From Bacteroidota bacterium (lineage in GTDB: Bacteria; Bacteroidota; Bacteroidia; NS11-12g; UBA9320): a stretch of DNA of 64,000 nt. Positions 1 to 865 of the stretch are shown here, piece after piece. The stretch is taken from contig WGNA01000005.1 of the NCBI GenBank assembly GCA_016124755.1, forward strand, positions 1-64,000, read 5' to 3'. Position numbers and translations under genes: made by a program. Each line of letters starts with the position of its first letter. The first letter of the stretch is position 1. A model generated the notes under the pieces. That model had not been told where the DNA came from. It worked only from the letters and a program-made list of their open reading frames with translations, and searched no databases.

Positions 1-19
1 GATATCTCGGAGGCTTTCG

Positions 20-120
20 TGACCTCGTCAGGATTCAAACCTGAAACCTTCTGATCCGTAGTCAGATGCTCCCTGCCCGCCACCGCTCTTGCCTTCAGGC
101 AGGCGGGTATTCAATTGAGC
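20..120 (-). pseudogene. Broken tRNA-Arg(ACG) copy with D-loop insert
   Basis: Read on the minus strand, this matches the intact tRNA-Arg at 176-249 from the D stem (GCTC) through the anticodon arm, T arm and 3' acceptor strand. The first nine tRNA bases (the 5' acceptor strand) are missing and replaced by unrelated sequence. A 36-bp insert (72-107) sits at the 3' edge of the D loop. Without a 5' acceptor strand it cannot fold into a tRNA. It is followed at 1-19 by the start of the same terminator stem that follows the intact tRNA, so tRNA and terminator were duplicated together. Confidence 0.85.
72..107. repeat. 36-bp palindromic insert in tRNA D loop, copy 1
   Basis: The ends CCTGCCCGCC and GGCAGGCGGG form a roughly 10-bp imperfect inverted repeat. 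A small inner hairpin (TGCC/GGCA) closes on a loop that reads TTC here and AAC in the two other copies. The insertion point is the same tRNA position in all three broken copies. It resembles a REP-type element. Confidence 0.8.
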
Positions 121-144
121 CTTAATTTCAAAATCTTCACATAT

Positions 145-170
145 AAAAAAGCCCCCGATATCTCGGAGGC
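145..170 (-). terminator. Rho-independent terminator of tRNA-Arg
   Basis: On the minus strand an 8-bp stem (GCCTCCGA / TCGGGGGC, one G-U pair) with a GATA loop is followed by six T. It starts six bases after the tRNA 3' end. Confidence 0.85.
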
Positions 171-175
171 TTTTG

Positions 176-249
176 TGACCTCGTCAGGATTCAAACCTGA
201 AACCTTCTGATCCGTAGTCAGATGCTCTATTCAATTGAGCTACGAGGCC
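176..249 (-). tRNA. tRNA-Arg (anticodon ACG)
   Basis: A complete cloverleaf can be drawn. The acceptor stem is GGCCTCG/CGAGGTC with discriminator A, the D stem is GCTC/GAGC, the anticodon stem is TCTGA/TCAGA with loop CTACGGA (anticodon ACG), and the T arm carries GGTTTGAATCC. CCA is not encoded. It is the only intact copy among four related segments and decodes CGN arginine codons. Its first 23 bases double as the 3' end of the upstream GIY-YIG gene. Confidence 0.95.
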
Positions 250-481
250 ATTTTCTTTTTATCCATTCACGTCCAAAACCACTTTTCAAATATAATTCGC
301 GCTTTCGGGCTTCCAGTCGTGTTTCAAATTCTTCAACATGTATCAACTCCCAGGGTCCATAGGGTTTGGTTGATTTAGTTCTTCCAGCATTATGTTGTTT
401 TAATCTTTGGTCAACATCCGAAGACATACCAACATAAAACCGTTTGTGTTCAACACTTCTTAATATGTATGTAAAGAACAT
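227..481 (-). CDS. Small GIY-YIG nuclease, copy 1 (ends in tRNA-Arg)
   Basis: 84-residue single-domain GIY-YIG (URI/UPF0213 type) protein. The core is visible: TYIL and YVG strands, the conserved Arg in QRLKQHN, and a C-terminal KRELYLKSG segment with the candidate catalytic Glu. GIY-YIG domains cut DNA phosphodiester bonds and occur in homing and repair nucleases. The start chosen is the ATG two bases after the displaced tRNA half at 483-557. An upstream ATG would add residues encoded only by the D-loop insert and tRNA fragment. The last eight residues (KWPRSSIE) and the stop codon run into the tRNA-Arg gene, overlapping it by 23 bases. The biological target is unknown. Confidence 0.75.
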   Translation of the reverse strand: MFFTYILRSVEHKRFYVGMSSDVDQRLKQHNAGRTKSTKPYGPWELIHVEEFETRLEARKRELYLKSGFGREWIKRKWPRSSIE

Positions 482-482
482 T

Positions 483-557
483 TCCGTAGTCAGATGCTCC
501 CTGCCCGCCACCGCTCTTGCCAACAGGCAGGCGGGTATTCAATTGAGCTACGAGGCC
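483..557 (-). pseudogene. Displaced tRNA-Arg 5' half, copy 2
   Basis: Contains tRNA-Arg bases 1 to 38 (acceptor 5' strand, D arm, 5' anticodon stem and the complete CTACGGA loop) with a 36-bp insert at 500-535 in the D loop. The 3' half is replaced by the GIY-YIG gene at 227-481. The breakpoint lies exactly at the 3' edge of the anticodon loop. Confidence 0.85.
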
Positions 558-789
558 ATTTACTTTTTATCCATTCGCGACCAAAACCACTTTTCAAATA
601 TACTTCGCGCTTTCGGGCTACCTGTCGTGTTTCAAATTCTTCAACATGTATCAACTCCCAGGGTCTATAGGGTTTTGTTGATTTTGTTCTTCCGGCATTA
701 TGTTGTTTTAATCTTTGGTCAACATCTGAAGACATACCAACGTAAAACCGTTTGTGTTCAACACTTCTTAATATGTATGTAAAGAACAT
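490..789 (-). CDS. Small GIY-YIG nuclease, copy 2 (extended tail)
   Basis: 99-residue near-duplicate of the 227-481 gene. In the shared part it differs at five residues, including LEA to QVA, while keeping TYIL, YVG, the Arg of QRLKQHN and the Glu of KRE. It starts two bases after the third tRNA half (791-865), in the same way as copy 1. The 36-bp insert in the downstream tRNA half is a multiple of three, so the frame stays open. Instead of stopping after SSIE it continues through the insert (YPPACWQERWRAGSI) and stops in the anticodon arm. Whether it is active is unclear, because the changed Glu lies near the catalytic helix. Confidence 0.7.
   Translation of the reverse strand: MFFTYILRSVEHKRFYVGMSSDVDQRLKQHNAGRTKSTKPYRPWELIHVEEFETRQVARKREVYLKSGFGREWIKSKWPRSSIEYPPACWQERWRAGSI
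500..535. repeat. 36-bp palindromic insert in tRNA D loop, copy 2
   Basis: Same element and same insertion point as 72-107, with AAC in the inner loop. It is read in frame by the GIY-YIG gene at 490-789. Confidence 0.8.
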
Positions 790-790
790 T

Positions 791-865
791 TCCGTAGTCA
801 GATGCTCCCTGCCCGCCACCGCTCTTGCCAACAGGCAGGCGGGTATTCAATTGAGCTACGAGGCC
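791..865 (-). pseudogene. Displaced tRNA-Arg 5' half, copy 3
   Basis: Outermost copy, with the same content as 483-557: tRNA bases 1 to 38 plus the 36-bp insert at 808-843. It directly precedes the ATG of the second GIY-YIG gene. No GIY-YIG gene lies upstream, so this may be the original 5' half of the tRNA locus. The 98 bases from 866 to 963 hold no gene or structure I recognise. Confidence 0.8.
808..843. repeat. 36-bp palindromic insert in tRNA D loop, copy 3
   Basis: Identical to the copy at 500-535 and in the same position of the tRNA fragment. Confidence 0.8.

Follow-up and report, generated by a model that had tools for sequence, protein, structure and literature searches.

What is a gene for a GIY-YIG nuclease doing between broken and intact copies of one and the same tRNA gene? 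This question is raised by the beginning of the window, the stretch of 64,000 nucleotides of a Bacteroidota genome that was analysed here. On the minus strand the window contains, in the order that a sequence-only reading had described, a tRNA 5' part (865-791), a GIY-YIG gene (core 789-538), another tRNA 5' part (557-483), another GIY-YIG gene (481-230) and an intact tRNA-Arg(ACG) (249-175). The series is composed of two 308-bp minus-strand units, each with a broken tRNA-Arg(ACG) 5' part followed by a GIY-YIG gene, located upstream of the intact tRNA-Arg(ACG). Direct repeats at 228-527 and 536-835 are 96% identical across 300 bp, supporting the earlier view of the tandem copies as repeated units. 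The intact tRNA (175..249, minus strand) was identified with ARAGORN and Rfam (tRNA, 64 bits), and a whole-genome search revealed no second intact tRNA that has this anticodon; an 80% match on contig C38 is tRNA-Arg(TCT).

The nuclease gene next to the intact tRNA (227..481, minus strand, 84 aa, identified as an open reading frame and by Pfam) has its final eight codons and its TAG stop inside this tRNA (overlap 227-249), with the TAG in the D-loop. The second gene (490..789, minus strand, likewise found as an open reading frame and by Pfam) lacks its own stop, and its frame runs into the neighbouring broken tRNA, resulting in 99 aa. Five of 84 residues differ between the two proteins, the number counted earlier, and the GIY-YIG domain was detected by Pfam with an E value of 2e-18. 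Each tRNA part includes the anticodon loop (CTACGGA) up to its final base, two bases before the start of the ATG, as had been seen from the letters alone. The 39 tRNA bases ascribed to each unit are also present (bases 1-39, in the broken copies 483..557 and 791..865, both minus strand), but each part is 75 bp long: a GC-rich hairpin of 36 bp (CCCGCCTGCCTG..GGCGGGCAGG), overlooked in that reading, is inserted in the D-loop after base 22 (500..535 and 808..843, minus strand). The same reading had also missed a third copy, a minus-strand pseudo-tRNA-Arg (19..120) with intact tRNA bases 23-75, a 36-bp D-loop hairpin (72..107, minus strand) and no 5' acceptor strand. A terminator-like stem-loop with a T run is found downstream of the intact tRNA (143..171, minus strand) and is repeated after the pseudo-tRNA at 1-15.

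Window position 1 is the start of contig C23 (the genome comprises 4.05 Mb in 39 contigs), and the pseudo-tRNA is one unit of a 156-bp tandem array, two further units of which end contig C31. Thus, the array spans the gap between C31 and C23, and its copy number is uncertain. About 0.8 kb from the array, a relic of tRNA-Arg(ACG) bases 48-75 with the terminator was observed (L012:4204-4262, G000:C31). A window that begins at a contig end within an array could suggest a short-repeat assembly artefact. However, the units are 4-5% divergent, the same genome has a second locus at tRNA-Glu, and the same anatomy occurs inside long contigs and in single-contig genomes, where tandem arrays were also found (for example 450-bp units in G293); we therefore regard an artefact as extremely improbable. 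Neither is the layout due to chance, given the 300-bp repeats of 96% identity and about 150 loci with the same layout.

The second locus, likewise missed in the earlier reading, is located on contig C28. Its GIY-YIG gene is divergent (45% identity) and flanked by two copies of tRNA-Glu(TTC), one broken and one intact. The broken tRNA is interrupted by inserts in the D-loop as well as close to the variable region, and its break is in the T-loop, showing that the layout is bound neither to tRNA-Arg nor to the anticodon loop. Relatives of the nuclease were gathered from 58 order-level relatives, 296 Bacteroidota genomes and GTDB contigs; the latter include Patescibacteria, Nitrospirota, Omnitrophota and Elusimicrobia, with Patescibacteria sampled solely through this set. 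Loci were picked by protein similarity and not by tRNA proximity. Matches with an E value below 1e-7 yielded 215 close relatives in Bacteroidota, Patescibacteria, Nitrospirota and Elusimicrobiota. A same-strand tRNA is located within about 600 bp in 181 of the 215 and within 150 bp in 145, a tRNA on the opposite strand alone was found once (1/215), and a partial copy of the adjacent tRNA is present across the gene in 155. After removal of duplicates 203 relatives are left, with a same-strand tRNA in 169 (within 150 bp in 141) and a partial copy in 144. Several relatives without the tRNA pattern sit at contig ends or inside arrays. Genomes contain some 40-50 tRNA genes, so a random gene would rarely be so near to one. 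With an E value of 1e-12 or better, 81 of the 296 sampled Bacteroidota genomes (about 27%) have close relatives, with up to 16 copies each.

Altogether, 34 anticodon types were found beside the GIY-YIG relatives. The proposal of a minimal GIY-YIG element that is associated with tRNA genes and preserves an intact tRNA for the host is supported by this recurrence, and the search for an equal layout at other tRNAs that had been suggested was positive. Two parts of the proposal did not hold. An anticodon loop as fixed target is contradicted by the relatives, the breakpoints of which range from the D arm through the variable and T arms and differ even within one isotype. A mobile unit made of the gene and a 5' half does not account for the mirror layout, intact tRNA, GIY-YIG gene and 3' part, which is at least as common (86 distinct pairs versus 58 with the partial copy first). 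That the layout recurs with almost all kinds of tRNA gene, and in several phyla, suggests that a family of minimal mobile elements, which would target tRNA genes, has been overlooked.

The comparison of filled and empty sites, which had also been proposed, was possible within one genus. In 16 genomes the site is empty, a plain tRNA-Ser(TGA) between atpG and a tolC-like gene, while five further genomes of this genus have a filled site with the nuclease gene alongside additional tRNA copies, the intact tRNA-Ser being kept. In a sixth filled locus (L239), truncated by a contig end, the GIY-YIG gene and the broken tRNA are visible and no intact copy is seen. Both mirror layouts were found at this single atpG-tRNA-Ser-tolC locus. 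Some alleles of the target locus thus carry the gene and others lack it, the pattern looked for in free-standing homing endonucleases of the SegB type.

To characterise the nuclease, 179 sequences were compared. The active site is intact, with the catalytic residues Y5, Y16, R26 and E62, as well as G18, conserved at 99-100%. Purifying selection acts on the tandem nuclease copies, as indicated by a pooled pN/pS of 0.28 over 34 tandem pairs; the window pair alone has 5 nonsynonymous changes per 181.7 sites and 7 synonymous changes per 46.3 sites. The predicted fold of the 84-aa protein (pLDDT 94) is a bare GIY-YIG domain, and no separate DNA-binding domain was found within the 84 residues. Nearest by sequence and fold are UPF0213 (YazA) and the structure-specific nuclease SLX1. 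SLX1, a larger protein, acts together with SLX4, and to our knowledge neither UPF0213 nor SLX1 is known as a tRNA-associated mobile gene. In the protein tree, which rests on 80 columns and has many weakly supported forks, 39 changes were counted in the amino acid of the neighbouring tRNA, compared to 93 in shuffles, and 87 in the host family, compared to 108. The nuclease tree thus follows the tRNA isotype far better than the host, and lineages track their target, as would be expected of target-bound homing lineages.

These data also bear on a simpler history without homing, in which a GIY-YIG gene has long resided near tRNA genes, units are duplicated by unequal recombination and surplus tRNAs decay. 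Part of the pattern could be imitated by tandem duplication in a tRNA-rich neighbourhood; arrays of near-identical units and decayed copies do exist, and the amplification described for SegB (see below) is an example of recombination driving such arrays, which can be unstable. However, a resident gene fits poorly with 34 anticodon types in several phyla, with filled and empty sites inside one genus in both layouts, with a nuclease tree sorted by isotype across host families and with purifying selection on the nuclease, and we judge it unlikely.

The hairpins in the broken copies are placed in tRNA loops with striking regularity. Among 155 inserts of at least 8 nt, 109 are located in cloverleaf hairpin loops compared to 64 expected (p 6e-13, with related loci counted as independent), and 33 in stems compared to 59 expected. 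In several copies two or three of the D-, anticodon-, variable- and T-loops carry inserts together, while the stems are unchanged, and 25 T-loop inserts have the junction GTTC|GA in common. A recurrent 22-nt insert consists of two adjacent short hairpins; it showed 20 two-sided changes compared to 3.9 in shuffles, a test on 17 sequences chosen for this shape, with two other 22-nt inserts omitted, which describes the type and is no proof of selection. A long single hairpin of 22 bp was discarded for these inserts, since the pairing test favours two short ones.

Retained tRNA stems with hairpins in the loops, and the paired changes in the set chosen for the double hairpin, might mean that the pseudo-tRNA works as an RNA, either controlling the nuclease in the manner of an RNA antitoxin or serving as a decoy against tRNA-cutting enzymes. 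We consider such a function quite unlikely: the pseudo-copies are frequently truncated halves, sequence and length of the hairpin vary between loci, and similar hairpins are found outside tRNA copies too. The latter were detected in 14 of 197 genomes, and 11 of these 14 carry the nuclease (Fisher p 8e-5, uncorrected for host phylogeny).

This enrichment, together with the loop preference, the common T-loop junction and the structure-specific SLX1 among the nearest folds, would also suit a GIY-YIG protein that is mainly a hairpin mobiliser, bringing small palindromes into single-stranded loops, where they would be tolerated in tRNA relics. REP/REPIN sequences with their RAYT proteins likewise combine small dispersed palindromes with a short nuclease, and the double hairpins recall REPIN pairs; in contrast to these, the element gene encodes a GIY-YIG protein and not a Y1 tyrosine transposase, and the palindromes sit in tRNA loops. 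Mobilisation of hairpins by GIY-YIG would be a hypothetical counterpart to that by RAYT. The association with the nuclease is confounded by host phylogeny, three hairpin-bearing genomes have no close nuclease relative, and hairpin sequences vary inside one genome. In addition, dispersed palindromes are few in the window's genome, with just two others, which is not the picture of a TnpA-REP (Y1) transposase with flanking REPs. We give the mobiliser a low probability.

The idea that the hairpins represent a single abundant repeat dispersed over the window's genome was likewise rejected, as only two other sites exist, both in a MITE-like repeat. This repeat of roughly 190 bp (CCCACTTTATGCATTGGAACTTCGTAG...) with the CCTGCCGGCAGGCAGG palindrome is located at G000:C16 about 240-560 (L182) and G000:C29 about 118030-118330 (L184), and its palindromes are the only such ones outside tRNA copies in this genome. 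Another Bacteroidota genome, G187 (L187-L211), contains 29 matches to a CCCGCCCGAACG..GGGCGGG palindrome, mostly within short repeats of the GTGATGC/GTGATAC type. Furthermore, a CCCGCCCGAACG-type palindrome was observed in the loop of an apparent terminator hairpin (AAAAAAGC..GCTTTTTT) at L190 (G065:C1:362746).

The closest known case is SegB, a free-standing GIY-YIG homing endonuclease of T-even phages (T6) that cuts within tRNA genes, prefers the motif RAWTSGAAC, lies close to tRNAs of many isotypes in phage genomes and causes tRNA and segB to be amplified in tandem in a recombination-dependent manner (PMC13096335). We read this motif as the complement of the sequence GTTCSAWTY, a match to the T-loop that is suggested by the present analysis. 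Common to both are a GIY-YIG nuclease adjoining tRNA genes of many isotypes, tandem units of tRNA and gene, and the sparing of the neighbouring intact tRNA. SegB differs in being phage-borne and larger, whereas the present family is chromosomal, encodes about 80 aa and occurs in other phyla; split and rebuilt tRNAs, loop hairpins and isotype-specific lineages are not reported for SegB (PMC13096335). Searches for a plasmid, phage or IMG/VR carrier found no close relatives, and a phage or plasmid vehicle was dropped for this reason.

Group I introns with GIY-YIG homing endonucleases share the insertion in tRNA genes, the nuclease and the preserved tRNA function. In the present element, however, tRNA function is kept by a duplicated tRNA part and not by splicing. 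No Rfam intron match was obtained, the search of 1-1500 yielding tRNA and sub-threshold matches only, and a group I intron was ruled out, as no catalytic intron RNA lies between the halves. Integrative elements with attachment sites in tRNA genes similarly bring the tRNA end that their insertion would replace. In contrast to these, the present element measures about 300-450 bp as a whole, has no integrase and breaks the tRNA body, and either end can be duplicated; with GIY-YIG as the sole ORF of the element, an integrase-borne element was ruled out.

The arrangement is probably best explained by a minimal chromosomal, isotype-specific homing-like element, which would insert in tRNA genes and bring along the part of the tRNA that is missing. 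We infer that the nuclease would recognise one kind of tRNA gene and break it, and that recombinational repair off an element-bearing copy would install both the nuclease gene and the part of the tRNA otherwise destroyed. One intact tRNA would thereby always be left to the host, and the displaced copy would become a hairpin-filled relic, which may also resist cutting. Should the donor's own intact tRNA be broken, repair out of register between the tRNA repeats could, by analogy with SegB, generate tandem arrays. Several observations argue against this explanation. The displaced copies are interrupted in their loops, yet an intact tRNA persists beside the gene and should itself be a target. Moreover, breakpoints vary within an isotype, which is at odds with a classical homing site, and neither a separate DNA-binding domain nor a plasmid, phage or IMG/VR carrier was found.

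The arrangement is real and general, and it is apparently undescribed in the searchable literature: the open-access literature searched, with subscription papers and preprints outside its scope, yielded no account of these chromosomal loci. It most likely represents a variant of homing endonucleases, although its anatomy might yet turn out to constitute a separate class. With slightly less than even confidence we suggest a class of minimal mobile elements, widespread in Bacteroidota and several other phyla, with isotype-specific GIY-YIG nucleases, for which tRNA genes would be both target and self-restoring homology, and in which the loop hairpins of spent copies would be part of the mechanism, either as a lock against re-cutting or as a product of the nuclease. 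If the homing-like mechanism is true, essential single-copy tRNA genes would routinely be invaded by elements of about 300 bp that repair their own damage, and many tRNA relics would be explained. The loci would then allow tests of how a nuclease coexists with an adjacent target of its own, and they offer natural nucleases sorted by tRNA isotype.

Weak GIY-YIG matches, possibly older members, were observed in the window's genome about 430 bp after the tmRNA (L005, G000:C1:119845) and about 50 bp after tRNA-Lys(TTT) (L006, G000:C31:108531). Two other matches, at G188:C41:17814-18038 and G320:C27:15124-15351, are located within long open frames of 717 and 1339 codons, respectively, and are perhaps domain fusions.
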